The notes under the pieces are model-generated. The model was not told the origin of the DNA and did not search any database. It saw nothing but the letters and a program-made list of their open reading frames with translations. From Bacteroidales bacterium (GTDB lineage Bacteria; Bacteroidota; Bacteroidia; Bacteroidales; UBA932): 64,000 bases of DNA. The translations under genes were made by a program, and so were the position numbers. This document shows, piece after piece, positions 30,005 through 37,233 of this stretch (position 1 is its first letter; each line of letters begins with the position of its first letter). Location of the stretch: assembly GCA_017400135.1 (NCBI GenBank), contig JAFPVJ010000012.1, positions 175,172 through 239,171 on the forward strand, given 5' to 3'.

Positions 30005-31117
30005 ATGAGATACGTACTGAAACCTGTACTAACCGCCGCCGTTGCCCTCGTCCTCGCATCCTGCGGGGGCGGGGACAAGACGGCTCCCCGCCAGCAGCTG
30101 CTGGACCGCCTGTCGGCTTCCGTAGCTGAGGGCAAGATTCTCTATGGCCACCAGGATGACCTGGTCTATGGCCATGCCTGGAAGGTGGAGGATGTCGACG
30201 GCGATGCGTTGGAGCGTTCTGATGTAAAGGATGTCTGCGGCCATTTCCCCGCCGTCGTCGGCTTCGACCTGGGCGCCATCGAGTCCGGGGGACCGGACAA
30301 TATCGATGACGTCCCCTTCGCGCTGATGCGCCGCGCCGCGCTCACCCATGTCGCACGCGGGGGCATCGTCACCTTCTCCTGGCATCCCTGGAATCCGCTG
30401 ACCGGCGAGAATGCCTGGGGCATGCCGGCCGGCGCGGCTGTCGCTTCCGTCCTGCCGGGCGGGGAGAAACATGAAAAATTCCAGGGCTGGCTGCAGGCGG
30501 TCGGAGATTTCTTCGACACTCTGCGCGATGCGGATGGGAATCGCATTCCCTTCATCTTCCGCCCCTGGCACGAGCATACCGGAAGCTGGTTCTGGTGGGG
30601 CCGCGACCACTGTACCGTGGAAGAATATGTGGCCTTGTTCCGCATGACCCATGACTACCTGGCCGTGGAGCGCGGGATGGACAACATCGTCTGGTGCTAT
30701 TCGCCCGGACGGGAGTCCGACGAGGCGATGTACATGGAGCGCTGGCCCGGCGACGACGTCGTGGACCTGATGGGCCTGGACTGCTACACCTACCTGGGTG
30801 AAGACGGGATCGCGCCTGCCGTGGCCCGCTACCGGGAGCAGGTCGGTTCCGCCCTGGCCTACATGACGAGGCTTGGCCGCGAGCACGGCAAGCTGATCTG
30901 CCTGTCGGAGACCGGCTTCGAAGGCATTCCGGACCCGACCTGGTGGACGGAGACCCTGTATCCCACGATCCAGGATGCGCCCATCGCCTATGTGCTGACC
31001 TGGCGTAATGCCTGCGATAAGCCGAACCACTTCTATGCTCCCTGGGAAGGGTTTGAGCATGCCGTTGACTTCAAGGCGTTCAGCGAGAAAGAAGATATCG
31101 TGTTATTGAATCTTTAG
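30005..31117 (+). CDS. GH26 mannanase / mannobiohydrolase lipoprotein
   Basis: 370 residues. It starts at MRYVLKPVL, 2 bp after the previous stop; longer in-frame starts lie inside the GH5 gene. The lipobox is VLASC. The GH26 barrel has ILYGHQDDLVYGH, FSWHPWNP, the acid/base Glu190 in FRPWHEHTGSWFWWG, and the nucleophile Glu302 in CLSETGFEG. There is no spacer domain, which suits a periplasmic or close-to-membrane enzyme. The compact form resembles Bacteroides mannobiose-releasing GH26 enzymes, which would feed the epimerase-GH130 route; the exo mode is inference. Confidence 0.9.
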   Translation: MRYVLKPVLTAAVALVLASCGGGDKTAPRQQLLDRLSASVAEGKILYGHQDDLVYGHAWKVEDVDGDALERSDVKDVCGHFPAVVGFDLGAIESGGPDNIDDVPFALMRRAALTHVARGGIVTFSWHPWNPLTGENAWGMPAGAAVASVLPGGEKHEKFQGWLQAVGDFFDTLRDADGNRIPFIFRPWHEHTGSWFWWGRDHCTVEEYVALFRMTHDYLAVERGMDNIVWCYSPGRESDEAMYMERWPGDDVVDLMGLDCYTYLGEDGIAPAVARYREQVGSALAYMTRLGREHGKLICLSETGFEGIPDPTWWTETLYPTIQDAPIAYVLTWRNACDKPNHFYAPWEGFEHAVDFKAFSEKEDIVLLNL

Positions 31118-31121
31118 GCCT

Positions 31122-32285
31122 ATGACATTCAATGAGAGACTGGTCGACCTGACCTGGAACCATGAGCAACTGATTGCGTGCCCGAACGAACCCCTCGAGG
31201 GGAACGGTGTCTACGAGCGTTATAAATATCCCATCCTGACGGCGGAACATGCTCCCTTGTTCTGGCGCTATGACCTGGATGAGCAGACGAATCCCTACCT
31301 GATGGAGCGCTTTGGCATCCATGCGACCTTGAACGCCGGTGCCATCAAGTGGAACGGGAAATACGTGCTGATGGTGCGCGTGGAAGGGGCCGACCGGAAG
31401 AGTTTCTTCGCTGTGGCGGAGAGCCCGAACGGGGTGGATCATTTCCAGTTCTGGGACCGGCCGGTCACGATGCCGGAGTGGGGCGAACCCGCGACGAATG
31501 TCTATGACATGCGCCTGACGGCTCACGAGGACGGCTGGATCTATGGCATCTTCTGCGTGGAGCGTAAAGATCCGGCGGCGGCCCCGGGAGACCTTTCTTC
31601 CGCTGTCGCCGCGGCGGGCATCGCCCGGACGAAGGACCTTGTGAACTGGGAGCGCCTTCCGGATCTCCAGTCGGGAAGCCAGCAGCGGAATGTGGTCTTG
31701 CATCCCGAGTTCGTAGAAGGGAAATATGCCCTTTATACACGTCCGCAGGACGGTTTCATCGACGCCGGGAACGGCGGCGGCATCGGCTGGGCTCTGGTGG
31801 ATTCGATGGAGCATGCGGTCGTGACGGAAGAGAAAATCATCAACGCCCGCCACTATCATACCGTCAAGGAATGTAAGAACGGGGAAGGTCCGGCGCCGAT
31901 CAAGACGGACCGGGGCTGGCTGCACCTGGCACACGGCGTACGGGGTTGCGCGAGCGGCCTCCGTTATGTCCTGTATCTGTATATGACCGCCTTGGACGAC
32001 CCGTCCCGCGTGATTGCGGAACCTGCGGGATTCTTCATGGCGCCGGAAGGTGAAGAGTATGTCGGAGATGTGATGAACGTCCTCTTCTCCAACGGATGGA
32101 TCGCAGATGAGGACGGTACCGTCTACATTTATTATGCTTCCAGTGACACCCGCCTGCACGTGGCCGTCTCCAGCGTGGACCGGCTCGTGGATTATTGCCT
32201 GCACACGGAGCCGGACGGCCTGCGGACCGGCCGCTCCGTCGAGACCCTGAACCGACTGATCGACAAGAACCTCAACAACAAGTGA
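31122..32285 (+). CDS. GH130 mannosylglucose phosphorylase
   Basis: 387 residues, no signal peptide, so cytoplasmic. It has the five-bladed propeller pattern of GH130 with the catalytic Asp129 in NVYDMRLTAHEDGWIYGIFC. Also seen are KYVLMVRVEGADRKSFFAVAESPNG, LHPEFVEGKYALYTRPQDGF and YHTVKECKNGEGPAPIKTDRGWLHL (phosphate and sugar contacts). Length and motifs fit subfamily 1, 4-O-beta-mannosylglucose phosphorylase, giving mannose-1-phosphate and glucose. It completes the pathway started by the 2-epimerase at 15888. Confidence 0.92.
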   Translation: MTFNERLVDLTWNHEQLIACPNEPLEGNGVYERYKYPILTAEHAPLFWRYDLDEQTNPYLMERFGIHATLNAGAIKWNGKYVLMVRVEGADRKSFFAVAESPNGVDHFQFWDRPVTMPEWGEPATNVYDMRLTAHEDGWIYGIFCVERKDPAAAPGDLSSAVAAAGIARTKDLVNWERLPDLQSGSQQRNVVLHPEFVEGKYALYTRPQDGFIDAGNGGGIGWALVDSMEHAVVTEEKIINARHYHTVKECKNGEGPAPIKTDRGWLHLAHGVRGCASGLRYVLYLYMTALDDPSRVIAEPAGFFMAPEGEEYVGDVMNVLFSNGWIADEDGTVYIYYASSDTRLHVAVSSVDRLVDYCLHTEPDGLRTGRSVETLNRLIDKNLNNK

Positions 32286-32286
32286 T

Positions 32287-34833
32287 ATGGGAAAGATCCG
32301 GACCTCCTTTGCGGAAAAAGTAGGATACGGCTTCGGGGATATGTCTTCCTCGATGTTCTGGAAGATATTCTCCTACTACCTCCCCTTCTTTTATAGCAAT
32401 ATTTTCGGCTTGCGGCTGGACCAGGTGGCCCTCCTGCTGGTCGTAACCCGCATTTGGGACGCCGTCAGCGACCCGATGATGGGCATCCTGGCGGACCGTA
32501 CCCGGACCCGCTGGGGCAAATACCGTCCCTACCTGCTGCTGATGGCGGTGCCATTCGCTTTGAGCGGTATCCTGCTCTTCACGACGCCGGACGCCAGCCC
32601 GACGATGAAACTGGTCTGGGCCTATGTGACCTATATCCTGATGATGACCGTCTATACCGGCATCAATGTCCCGTACGGGGCGATGCTGGGCGTGATGACC
32701 GACGATTCGGACACCAAGACGGTCCTCAGCTCCTTCCGCATGTTCTTCGCGTATGGCGGCAGTTTCATCGCGTTATTCTGCTGGGAGCCCCTCTGCAACG
32801 CCTTGGGCGGCTATGGCACGACGGGTGGCTGGCAACACGCGATGTTCGTGGTCGCGACGGTGTGCCTGGTGTTCTTCCTCCTTTGCTTCCTGATGACGCG
32901 GGAGAAACTCCACACCGTCAGCACGGTGTCCGTGGGCAGTGACCTCAAGCTCCTGCTCAAGAACGCTCCCTGGTGGATCCTGATCGGCGCGGCCCTGTGC
33001 TCGAACCTCTTCAATACGGTCCGGGGCAGTACGGTGGCTTATTTCTTCAACGATGTGATCGGTTCGGACGTCCACCTGCATCTCGGTGCCTGGAGCTTCT
33101 TGTTCTACGCGGGCCTGTTCCTGTCCATCGGCGAGGTGTGCAACATGATCGGCGTGGCCCTGGCCGTGCCGCTCTCCGCCAAACTCGGCAAGAAGACGAC
33201 CTACATGCTTTCCTTCGCCGCCCTCATCGTGCTGAGCATCCTGTTCTTCTACATCCCCGTGACCGGCAGCGGTTACTGGTGGATGCTGGTCTTGCAGGTG
33301 GTCATCAGCATTTTCACGGGCGTCATCTCGCCTCTTGTCTGGAGCATGTACGCGGATGTCAGCGACTACGCTGAGAACCGAGACGGCACCGCCTCCACCG
33401 CCCTGATCTTCTCTTCTGCTTCGATGGCGCAGAAGTTCGGAGGCGCGTTCGGCGGCGCAGCCGTGATGTGGATCCTGGCGGCCTTTGGCTATAATACGGC
33501 CGCAGGTGCCGTACAGACGCCCGAAGCCATCCACGGCCTGAAGATCCTGATGAGCTGGATTCCGGCCGCGGTGGCCGCCCTGGCTGTGCTCATCGTCTTC
33601 TTCTACCCCCTGACCCGCAAGCGTATGGATAAGATTCAGGACGAGCTGGCGCTCAAGCGCGGCTTAACGGGCGAGGAAGAGTCGGCATCGGCAGACTTGG
33701 TGCGGTCCGGCGCGGGCATCGGGGAGCCGGAAAGAACCCTGTCGGGGAAGGCTCCCCTCAACCCATCGCCGGCCCCGCAGACGTCCGCCGATGGGCAATC
33801 TTTCTTCAAGGGCCTCCCTGCCGTAATGCGCTGGGTGCTCGGCGTACTGGGCATCCTGATGCTGCTGGAGCTCGCCTTCGTGCTCTTCAAGGGCACGGAC
33901 AAGACGGCGGAACCCGTCGCGGCGGCCCTCCTGCCGGCCCTGTATGTGGAAGGGACGGCGCTCAAGGCGCAAGGCTCGGATCAGCCGGTGGTGTTCCGGG
34001 GTGTCAGTTTCGGCTGGCACAACATCTGGCCCCGCTTCTACAATGCGGGTGCGGTGAAGACCCTCAAGGAAGACTGGGGCGTCCCCATCGTGCGGGCCGC
34101 CATCGGTGCCGACGACCATGCCAAGGCAGACAATCCCGGCATTCGCAGCGGCTACATGGGTGAGCCCGAATGGGCCCTCGAATGCCTGTACAAGGTCATC
34201 GACGCAGCCATTGAAAACGGCATGTACGTCATTGCGGACTGGCATTCGCATGTCCTGCACAAGGCGGAGGCCGCGGAATTCTTCCGTGCCGTCGCCACCC
34301 GCTACGCCGACTGCCCCAATGTCATTTACGAACTGTACAACGAACCGGTGGAAGACAGCTGGGCGGACCTGAAGGCTTACGCCGAAGAGCTCTGCGCTCT
34401 GATCGACAGCATTTCTACGGTACACCCCCTCATCCTCATGGGCTGCCCGCACTGGGACCAGGATATCCACATTGTTCCGGAAGATCCGGTCACCAGTTAT
34501 GACAACCTGATGTACACCGTCCATTTCTACGCCGCCACCCATAAGGACTACCTGCGGGAGCGTTGCGACCTGGCCCTGGCCGCGGGCATCCCGGTCTTCA
34601 TCTCCGAGTGCGCTTCCTGCGAGTGCACGGGAGACGGGCCGATGGACGCGGAGTCCTGGAAGGCCTGGAGCGACTGGGCCACTGCCAGGGGCATCACGAT
34701 GCTGACCTGGAGCATCTCGGACAAGGTCGAGACCTGCTCGATGCTGACTAAGGAGGCTTTTTCGGAAGGCCCGTGGGAAGAGGAAGTCGTCAAGCCCTGG
34801 GGCCGGGATGTACAGGCCTGGATCCAAGAATAG
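32287..34833 (+). CDS. Fusion: GPH-type MFS sugar transporter plus GH5 hydrolase
   Basis: 848 residues in one uninterrupted frame. Residues 1 to about 455 are a twelve-helix glycoside-pentoside-hexuronide transporter with WDAVSDPMMGILADRTRTRWGKYRP carrying the cation-site Asp residues. A charged linker (about 460-510) leads to a further hydrophobic helix from Met514 (RWVLGVLGILMLLELAFVLF). Residues about 555-848 are a GH5 barrel: GVSFGWHNIWPRFYN, VIADWHSH, the acid/base Glu686 in YELYNEP and the nucleophile Glu774 in VFISECAS. With N- and C-ends of the transporter in the cytoplasm, the 13th helix should place GH5 in the periplasm. The extra helix looks like a retained signal peptide of a once separate GH5. 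The likely job is trimming oligosaccharides at the transporter mouth. Confidence 0.9.
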   Translation: MGKIRTSFAEKVGYGFGDMSSSMFWKIFSYYLPFFYSNIFGLRLDQVALLLVVTRIWDAVSDPMMGILADRTRTRWGKYRPYLLLMAVPFALSGILLFTTPDASPTMKLVWAYVTYILMMTVYTGINVPYGAMLGVMTDDSDTKTVLSSFRMFFAYGGSFIALFCWEPLCNALGGYGTTGGWQHAMFVVATVCLVFFLLCFLMTREKLHTVSTVSVGSDLKLLLKNAPWWILIGAALCSNLFNTVRGSTVAYFFNDVIGSDVHLHLGAWSFLFYAGLFLSIGEVCNMIGVALAVPLSAKLGKKTTYMLSFAALIVLSILFFYIPVTGSGYWWMLVLQVVISIFTGVISPLVWSMYADVSDYAENRDGTASTALIFSSASMAQKFGGAFGGAAVMWILAAFGYNTAAGAVQTPEAIHGLKILMSWIPAAVAALAVLIVFFYPLTRKRMDKIQDELALKRGLTGEEESASADLVRSGAGIGEPERTLSGKAPLNPSPAPQTSADGQSFFKGLPAVMRWVLGVLGILMLLELAFVLFKGTDKTAEPVAAALLPALYVEGTALKAQGSDQPVVFRGVSFGWHNIWPRFYNAGAVKTLKEDWGVPIVRAAIGADDHAKADNPGIRSGYMGEPEWALECLYKVIDAAIENGMYVIADWHSHVLHKAEAAEFFRAVATRYADCPNVIYELYNEPVEDSWADLKAYAEELCALIDSISTVHPLILMGCPHWDQDIHIVPEDPVTSYDNLMYTVHFYAATHKDYLRERCDLALAAGIPVFISECASCECTGDGPMDAESWKAWSDWATARGITMLTWSISDKVETCSMLTKEAFSEGPWEEEVVKPWGRDVQAWIQE

Positions 34834-34836
34834 AAG

Positions 34837-37233
34837 ATGAAACAATACGGTTTTTTTGATGACGACGTACGGGAATTCGTAATCACCGATCCCGCCACGC
34901 CGTGGCCCTGGATCAACTATCTGGGCTGCGAAGATTTCTTCTCTTTGATCAGCAATACCGCCGGCGGCTATTGCTTCTGCAAGGACGCCAAGTTCCGCCG
35001 TATCCTGCGTTACCGCTACAACGGCGTGCCCATGGACAACGGGGGCCGGTATTACTACATCAAGGACGGAGACAGCGTCTGGAATCCCGGCTGGAAGCCG
35101 TGCAAGACGCCGCTGGACCGCTATGAGTGCCGGCACGGGATGGGTTACACCCGTATCCTGGGCGAGAAGGACGGCCTGCGGGCCGAAACGCTCTTCTTCG
35201 TGCCCCGCGGCAGCCGCTGCGAAGTACATCGCGTCCGCCTGACCAACACCGGCGCCGCACCGAAGCGGGTGCAGCTCTATTCCTTCGTGGAATGGTGCCT
35301 CTGGAACGCCTCCACCGACATGGAGAACTTCCAGCGCAACCTCTCCACCGGCGAGGTTGAAATCGGAGACCGTATCCTGTACCACAAGACGGAATACCGC
35401 GAGCGCCGGGACCATTACGCTTTCCTGGGCGCCAACCGGCCTTTCGACGGCTTCGACACCGACCGGGAGGCGTTCCTGGGTCGGTACAACGGCTTCGATG
35501 CCCCGCAGCAGGTGCTGCAAGGCACATCCGGCCAGTCTGTCGCCCACGGCTGGAGCCCGGTTGCCGCGCAGCGTTTCGACCTGACCCTGGCGCCTGGCGC
35601 CACGGAGGAAGTGATCTTTGTGCTCGGCTATGTGGAGAATCCGCCCGAGGCCAAATTCTCCGCTCCGGGCGTCATCAACAAGGCCCCGGCCGAAGCGATG
35701 CTGCACGCCTTCGACACGACGGAGAAGGTGGATGCCGCTTTTGCGGCCCTGCGCGCCTATTGGGATGACCTGCTGGGCCGTTTCCGGCTTCAGTCCTCCG
35801 TCCCCGAACTGGACCGGACGGTCAACATCTGGAACCAGTACCAGTGCATGGTCACCTTCTTCATGAGCCGCAGCGCCAGCTATTTCGAGAGCGGCATCGG
35901 CCGCGGCATGGGTTTCCGCGACTCCAACCAGGACCTGGCGGGCATCGCCCACCTGATCCCGGACCGCGCCCGGCAGCGCATCCTGGACATCGCCGCCACC
36001 CAGTTCCCCGACGGGGGCTGCTACCATCAGTACCAGCCGCTTACGAAACGGGGCAATCACGACATCGGCGGTGGTTTCGGGGATGACCCCCTGTGGCTGA
36101 TCTTCGGTACGGTCACCTATATCAAGGAGACCGGCGATTTCGGCATCCTGGAGGAGCGTGTGCCCTTCGACAACCAGGCTGGGACCGAAGTCTCGCTGCT
36201 GGAACACCTGAAAATCAGCTTCTCTCGCGTGGCCGGAAACCTGGGCCCCCACGGCTTGCCCCTCATCGGCCGGGCCGACTGGAACGACTGTCTCAATCTG
36301 AATTGTTTTTCCGACAATCCGGACGAATCCTTCCAGACCACCGAAAACAAGACCGCGGGCAGCCGGGCCGAGTCCCTGATGATCGCGGGCCTGTTCGTGG
36401 CCGAAGGCAAGGACTTTGCCGAACTGCTTTCGCACCCGGCCGTGGCTGCCGATCCGGCCTACATCGCCGAGGTACGTGCAGCCGTCTCCGCGATGGAGCA
36501 GGCCGTGAAGCAGCACGGCTGGGATGGACGCTGGTTCCTCCGTGCATACGATTATTACGGACGGAAGATCGGCTCTGCCGAGAATCCGGAAGGCAAGATC
36601 TTCATCGAGAGCCAGGGCTGGTGCGGCATGGCCCGCATCGGGGCGAAGGAAGGGCTCTGTGACCAGGCGCTGGACGCCGCCTCGAAGTTGCTGGAATGCG
36701 AACACGGCCTGGTGCTCAACACCCCGGCCTATACCTCTTACCTGAAAGAATACGGCGAGATCAGTTCCTATCCCGAAGGGTACAAGGAGAACGCCGGTAT
36801 CTTCTGCCACAATAATCCCTGGATCATCATCGCTGAGGCGATGGCAGGCCGCCCGGAAGATGCCTGGCGGCACTATTGCAAGATCACGCCGTCCTTCGCC
36901 AAGGACCAGGACCTCCGCAAGGTTGAGCCTTACGTCTTCTGCCAGATGGTGGCCGGCAGGGATGCCGCCCGTCCCGGCGAGGGCAAGAACAGCTGGCTGA
37001 CCGGTACGGCCGCCTGGACCTGGAAGACGGTCAGCGAGTATATCCTTGGAATCAAGCCACAGTACGACGGCCTCCTGATCGAGCCCTGCATTCCGGCGCG
37101 CATCGGCACCTACCGGGTGCTGCGCCGTTTCCGCGAGGCGGAGTACGACCTGACCATCCACTATACCGGCCAAGGCGGGAGCCATTGGATTCCCTACAAG
37201 CCCGGAAAGCATTCCTTGAACATCGAACTCTAG
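34837..37233 (+). CDS. GH94 cellobiose phosphorylase
   Basis: 798 residues, close to the about 810 of cellobiose phosphorylases, without a signal peptide. An N-terminal beta-sandwich domain (about 1-280, YGFFDDDVREFVITDPATP...NYLG) precedes the (alpha/alpha)6 barrel. There RGMGFRDSNQDLAG, TQFPDGGCYHQYQPLTKRG, FGDDPLWLIFG and GRADWNDCLNLN (the ADWND motif at 480-484 carries the catalytic Asp) are all intact. The C-terminal SWLTGTAAWTW and GIKPQYDGLLIEP blocks are also typical. The predicted reaction is phosphorolysis of cellobiose, or a closely related beta-1,4-glucoside, to glucose-1-phosphate and glucose in the cytoplasm. Confidence 0.9.
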   Translation: MKQYGFFDDDVREFVITDPATPWPWINYLGCEDFFSLISNTAGGYCFCKDAKFRRILRYRYNGVPMDNGGRYYYIKDGDSVWNPGWKPCKTPLDRYECRHGMGYTRILGEKDGLRAETLFFVPRGSRCEVHRVRLTNTGAAPKRVQLYSFVEWCLWNASTDMENFQRNLSTGEVEIGDRILYHKTEYRERRDHYAFLGANRPFDGFDTDREAFLGRYNGFDAPQQVLQGTSGQSVAHGWSPVAAQRFDLTLAPGATEEVIFVLGYVENPPEAKFSAPGVINKAPAEAMLHAFDTTEKVDAAFAALRAYWDDLLGRFRLQSSVPELDRTVNIWNQYQCMVTFFMSRSASYFESGIGRGMGFRDSNQDLAGIAHLIPDRARQRILDIAATQFPDGGCYHQYQPLTKRGNHDIGGGFGDDPLWLIFGTVTYIKETGDFGILEERVPFDNQAGTEVSLLEHLKISFSRVAGNLGPHGLPLIGRADWNDCLNLNCFSDNPDESFQTTENKTAGSRAESLMIAGLFVAEGKDFAELLSHPAVAADPAYIAEVRAAVSAMEQAVKQHGWDGRWFLRAYDYYGRKIGSAENPEGKIFIESQGWCGMARIGAKEGLCDQALDAASKLLECEHGLVLNTPAYTSYLKEYGEISSYPEGYKENAGIFCHNNPWIIIAEAMAGRPEDAWRHYCKITPSFAKDQDLRKVEPYVFCQMVAGRDAARPGEGKNSWLTGTAAWTWKTVSEYILGIKPQYDGLLIEPCIPARIGTYRVLRRFREAEYDLTIHYTGQGGSHWIPYKPGKHSLNIEL

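Follow-up and report, generated by a model that had tools for sequence, protein, structure and literature searches.

A probable fusion of a GPH importer and a GH5 hydrolase in a glucomannan-type locus of a gut Bacteroidales genome

In a 64,000-nucleotide stretch of a Bacteroidales genome (hereafter the window), a GPH cation symporter and a GH5 glycoside hydrolase are encoded by one gene at 32287–34833 of the forward strand. Judging from sequence comparison, this gene probably arose when two neighbors in a glucomannan-type locus, one encoding the GPH importer and the other an exported, endoglucanase-like GH5, became a single frame, and the GH5 part is predicted to lie in the periplasm beside the importer. 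The gene appears as a real-looking, convergently evolved importer-enzyme fusion.

The gene, from a gut bacterium, runs from ATG to stop over 848 codons with zero internal stops. The GPH half (aa 1–459, 32287–33663), a putative 12-helix MelB-type cation symporter part, matches TIGR00792 at aa 11–455 over positions 1–435 of the 437 in the profile (E 6.5e-106; score 354.6 bits, cut-off 231.35) and the whole Pfam MFS_2 profile at aa 13–444 above its cut-off. Among solved structures, its closest relative is MelB (4m64, E 4.9e-33). A simple hydropathy scan shows 11 of the 12 expected helices in this half; since an unfused relative likewise scores 11, the missed helix is not specific to the fusion. 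The GH5 catalytic domain (aa 550–848, 33934–34830) matches Pfam Cellulase at aa 564–813 (E 2.8e-42) and is the sole copy in its own genome at E<=1e-20. Glu686 (34342–34344) within YELYNEP and Glu774 (34606–34608) within FISECA stand in columns that are invariant in an alignment of 14 GH5 sequences; from knowledge of the family and its NEP motif, we take these two to be the catalytic residues. A sequence-only reading of this DNA had claimed a complete GPH and a complete GH5 in one frame, with both catalytic Glu residues present, and the profile matches, the uninterrupted 848 codons and the invariant columns bear this out.

The fused gene is flanked, on the same strand, by genes assigned with Pfam to GH26, GH130, GH94 and GH31, and the order GH130-GPH-GH5-GH94 is conserved. 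GH26 (30014–31117, PF02156) and GH130, a mannoside phosphorylase family (31122–32285, PF04041, with the same order in relatives), are located upstream, and GH94, another phosphorylase family (34837–37233, PF17167 and PF06165), is located downstream. Two of the nearest related loci (L102 and L104) have, after GH5, an ORF of 884–886 aa without a match to the window GH94. As to the substrate, 26 solved relatives of the GH5 half are found at E<=0.001, with the cellulase 5i2u at the top (E 5.9e-95); the top-ranked ones carry the names cellulase or endoglucanase, not mannanase, in this ranking by nearest solved match. Presumably, the Bacillus-type endoglucanase group of this family is the one labeled GH5 subfamily 2, which is a candidate label for the window enzyme. 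Read from its nearest solved enzymes only, the window GH5 looks like an endoglucanase, which would make the locus point to glucomannan rather than plain mannan. The GH5 family named in the earlier assignment of the enzyme to a mannan locus is kept, while plain mannan would give way to glucomannan, the nearest solved relatives being cellulases and endoglucanases. In Segatella copri, GH130 is reported to act specifically on disaccharides that carry mannose at the non-reducing end, while cellobiose and glucosyl-mannose are the substrates proposed for GH94 (PMC12704710).

Between the two halves lie the linker start LTGEEESASAD... (33664–33695), at the position where the GPH of relatives ends (..KRNL-stop), a dispersed repeat (33696–33783, see below), and a hydrophobic segment, the putative signal anchor or 13th helix FFKGLPAVMRWVLGVLGILMLLELAFVLF (33802–33888). 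The hydrophobic core of this segment at aa 516–534 has a hydropathy score of 2.03, which is well inside the range of the GPH helices in the same scan, and the preceding loop (aa 440–515) is rich in K/R, with eight of these residues near the loop ends. In the nearest unfused loci (L101, L102, L104, L105, and L086), the GH5 gene starts 1–6 nt after the GPH stop, and the separate GH5 begins with a homologous anchor without a lipobox; for example, MALFKDLPKVMRIVLAVLAAVILCEAVFVLAKG of L101 (also numbered L084) is homologous to FFKGLPAVMRWVLGVLGILMLLELAFVLFKG of the window. Because the separate GH5 of unfused relatives starts in this way, the 13th helix is best regarded as an inherited signal anchor, which supports a periplasmic GH5. 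In MelB-type carriers, the C-terminus is cytoplasmic; with a 13th helix crossing the membrane behind it, the GH5 would be placed on the periplasmic face of the inner membrane. The earlier idea that an old export signal puts the enzyme into the periplasm thus gains support from the homologous anchors of the five loci. The extra hydrophobic segment itself also stands, but Met514 was not the ancestral start of GH5, because the anchor homology to the unfused proteins begins about eight residues ahead of this residue (FFKGLPAVM...). When a lipobox was called by a simple pattern on GH5 N-termini, it was found in none of 14 adjacent loci of GPH1 type and in 18 of 21 loci with other GPH types.

A dispersed repeat, putatively an imperfect palindrome, accounts for most of the linker; its in-frame translation is VRSGAGIGEPERTLSGKAPLNPSPAPQ, and its core is AAAGAACCCTGTCGGGGAA. 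The 88 bases at 33696–33783 are 92% identical to C9:44330–44417 of the same genome, a 92-base stretch at the same place is 88% identical to C9:46698–46789, and shorter matches are found elsewhere. A “charged linker” between the halves, as it had been described, is indeed present, but these same-genome copies identify it as mostly repeat DNA. The core of about 22 bases, AGGAAAGAACCCTTCGGGGAAT, occurs at 10 places of its own genome with <=3 mismatches (none for the reversed control) and, at <=2 mismatches, in only one of 121 genus genomes, the window's own. A comparison of 16 copies shows a conserved core between divergent arms (left arms with a median identity of 11 of 28), yet the two arms of a copy pair with each other: at as many as 28 of 28 positions, at 25–28 of 28 in several copies, and at 19 of 28, ungapped, in the window copy. 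Folded alone as DNA, the window copy has a z of -1.10, and 29 of 200 shuffles are equally stable; an exact-seed search for inverted repeats in the linker, this copy included, gave none. Rfam gave nothing above gathering score for the repeat, and six sub-threshold matches (five microRNA families and one malK-III), far below the gathering scores, were treated as chance. Members of the family are located in L002, L003, L005–L008, L010, L012, and L064–L070 (near position 1500) in addition to the window.

Members of this family are also found inside other reading frames. tsaB (L004) has 54 extra residues including one repeat arm without the core, at a site where the flanks are 0–9 bases apart in relatives (the seven genomes in which both flanks are listed); hrpB has, in comparison with Escherichia coli HrpB, 25 extra residues including the core; and the frame of the L002 gene is 662 aa against 618–633 aa in 15 of 17 close matches (661 and 517 aa in the other two). 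Coding sequences of the host genome therefore carry such inserts, and the copies in L002 and L004 are read in the same phase as the window linker. Copying of a hairpin arm from the insertion site is not supported at tsaB, where relatives lack the entire insert. A second translated repeat, GGRDGAEGDVGSPGAAGDSRGQSPL, and its near copy occur on the reverse strand in two unrelated frames of L004 (tsaB) and L064, partly in the tsaB insert.

Separate genes are the rule. From a public genome collection, 80 of 343 related loci were retained, comprising 35 with adjacent separate GPH and GH5 genes, three with fused ones, and 42 with GH5 without an adjacent GPH, so that the genes are separate in 35 of the 38 loci where they adjoin or are fused. 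In the genus, GH5 is found at E<=1e-20 in 62 of 400 genomes, four of which carry a GPH-GH5 fusion: the window genome, G352, G534, and G540 (the last three corresponding to L111, L116, and L113, respectively). The other 58 were judged by open-frame length, plus direct reading for long frames and fetched loci; they include G320, whose contig ends upstream of GH5 and leaves a fusion undecidable. The fusion is rare, in line with the sequence-only reading, and the same architecture does occur elsewhere in the genus, so that homologous loci do not always have two separate genes. Since these 58 genomes, the undecidable one among them, show no GPH fusion, tethering is dispensable for the pathway.

Order-wide, GH5 is found at E<=1e-60 in 36 of 393 genomes with frames of <=470 aa, except for the window and one frame of 810 aa (G584:C42), whose contig begins 270 bases ahead of the match so that an upstream GPH cannot be judged. 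In a GPH search of 295 genomes of the order, with at most five candidates scored per genome, only the window (857 aa) and G727:C31 (781 aa) have frames longer than 534 aa among the 87 matches listed. The latter was rejected as a hydrolase fusion because its extra length is an internal insertion: at L253 (G727:C31:71000–78500, reverse strand), this GPH lies next to GH94 and has about 300 extra residues between two helices, which resemble Ig/cadherin-type repeats and are perhaps a periplasmic domain. Frames of 1040–1136 aa in eight genus genomes were likewise rejected as GPH fusions, since GH5 is N-terminal in them (with a downstream GH36 seen in G118 and G072), and two frames, of 675 and 693 aa, proved to be GH26-GH5. 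Overall, L025, L026, L117–L122, L133, L135, and L141 have the GH5 domain in one frame with a GH36 downstream of it, and L081 and L082 have it in one frame with a GH26 upstream. Because it is also joined to GH36 in several genomes and to GH26 in two, the GH5 gene seems fusion-prone.

The GPH-GH5 fusion arose at least twice, separately in the window lineage and in a sister lineage. The sister fusions (G352, G534, and G540) have another GPH subtype, 37–39% identical to the window GPH, and their joint is free of the repeat: where unfused relatives have the GPH stop, these genes read CAG, AAG, or AAA, with ATG directly behind it. A hydrophobic segment between the halves is likewise found in them by the hydropathy scan. 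In maximum-likelihood trees, one of 42 rows for GPH and one of 35 rows for GH5, the four fused rows require two changes each time; well-supported branches force these two changes, and single-origin trees make up 0% of 200 bootstrap trees. The window locus is, furthermore, a mosaic, because its GPH groups with those of L101, L102, L104, and L105, all unfused and 80–85% identical, but its GH5 catalytic domain groups with L091–L094 (81% to L093), lipoprotein-type enzymes from loci with another GPH. At 33802–34830, an anchor of the L101–L105 type stands on an L091–L094-like catalytic domain, which is a sign of recombination within the GH5 gene.

A single frame in one draft genome (28 contigs, 88.58% complete) may also result from an assembly or base-calling error, in which case the GPH would really stop near codon 460, the repeat would be intergenic, and GH5 would have a start of its own, such as Met514 or one further upstream. 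The two halves meet in GC-rich repeat DNA around a hairpin core, where errors are typical, and in the +1 frame a TAA at 33665–33667 coincides with the GPH stop position of relatives, so that a one- or two-base error, or a real frameshift, at this place would split the genes. Moreover, a linker of 45 codons with such a base composition stays open in 36% of shuffles and, with an assumed factor of one-third, would be open and in frame in about 12%. Nevertheless, this explanation is unlikely, since GPH-GH5 fusions are found at the same gene boundary in the sister genomes, which come from three separate assembly projects all distinct from that of the window, and since copies of the repeat family are in frame in other genes, with the phase of the window in L002 and L004. 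It is mainly these independent sister fusions from other projects that lead us to believe that the architecture exists.

Even if the gene is fused, the protein may be split, by a cut behind the 13th helix or by a second start that yields a free anchored GH5, and the fusion would then be near-neutral. There is a precedent in the Bradyrhizobium cytochrome b/c1, whose precursor unites a polytopic protein with an exported one and is cleaved at a signal inside the chain; a literature search for internally cleaved bacterial membrane precursors returned, as far as the retrieved records go, mostly viral polyproteins and no paper on this precedent. In-frame candidate starts are present at 33826 (ATG) and 33697/33700 (TTG/GTG). 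In L111 and L116, a lipobox-like motif (LSAGC and LTAGC, respectively) is retained at the helix end, and cleavage after synthesis is therefore possible in those two fusions. The window protein and L113, however, are without such a Cys, and the window-type anchor without lipobox is also found in the four adjacent unfused loci L101, L102, L104, and L105, so that uncleaved anchoring is likely ancestral; a split protein is accordingly an improbable outcome for the window gene. It is far less probable still that the 13th segment fails to span the membrane and that GH5 acts in the cytoplasm on imported oligosaccharides, because the segment is homologous to the export anchors of separate GH5 proteins, its hydropathy is that of true GPH helices, and a former lipoprotein signal occupies the same place in the sister lineage.

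An intact fusion protein with a periplasmic GH5, the reading we favor, would have formed along two routes. In the window lineage, the dispersed hairpin-type repeat at the joint either took the place of the stop of GPH and the start of GH5 or bypassed them, while in the sister lineage the GPH stop turned into a sense codon adjoining the GH5 start. The C-terminus of GPH and the linker would be cytoplasmic, the old signal anchor of GH5 would span the membrane as the 13th helix, and the GH5 would be held on the periplasmic face with one enzyme per importer. Most likely, glucomannan is first shortened by GH26 and GH5 enzymes outside the cell or in the periplasm; the tethered GH5 would then cut the remaining beta-1,4-glucosyl links of gluco(manno)oligosaccharides at the inner membrane beside the symporter, GPH would import the short products, and the disaccharides among them would be split by phosphorolysis through GH130 and GH94. 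The tethering, as read from homology, may couple hydrolysis to uptake. More tentatively, and with more doubt than trust on our side, the protein could be an importer with a permanent periplasmic endo-hydrolase domain that cuts oligosaccharides at the importer's mouth, with at least two origins in the genus, one of them by way of a translated hairpin repeat as a ready-made linker.

In Bacteroidales loci, the final cut in the periplasm and the uptake through the inner membrane are regarded as separate steps carried out by separate proteins. The separate occurrence of a similar fusion in relatives hints that the joining is useful, and if one genus has acquired a covalent unit on two occasions, the proximity of enzyme and importer would seem to pay, for example, by less product loss or a fixed 1:1 ratio. 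Fused and unfused pairs at one locus are natural material for a direct test. Furthermore, a dispersed hairpin repeat that is tolerated in genes and connects the two newly joined domains of this protein would be a concrete example of a role for small repeats in gene fusion.

Compared with known systems, the GPH half resembles the GPH (TIGR00792) symporters of Bacteroidales mannan and glucomannan loci in its full-length profile match and its position after GH130, but its C-terminus, unlike that of ordinary GPH symporters, runs on into the linker, the 13th helix, and the enzyme. The separate GH5 proteins of L101, L102, L104, L105, and L086 are homologous to the window GH5 in both anchor and catalytic domain but have, unlike it, their own start codon 1–6 nt past the GPH stop. 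The fusions of L111, L113, and L116 share with the window the two partners, their order, and the locus, and differ in the GPH subtype, the repeat-free joint, the lipoprotein-type helix, and the separate origin. The repeat can be likened, by description and not by comparison of sequences, to the Rickettsia palindromic elements (RPEs), small palindrome-like dispersed repeats that are found in frame in unrelated genes and are translated (PMC10969869). Unlike RPEs as described in that source, the window family keeps the apical core while the stems vary by copy, and one copy has come to lie at the junction of two fused genes. The open-access literature, subscription papers being outside its scope, yielded no description of a GPH-GH transporter-hydrolase unit in what was retrieved. 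The bimodular GH26|GH5_4 of Segatella copri likewise joins two partners of one glucomannan locus but consists of two enzymes, is extracellular, and has no transporter part (PMC12704710). Joining of neighboring locus genes is already known from such cases.
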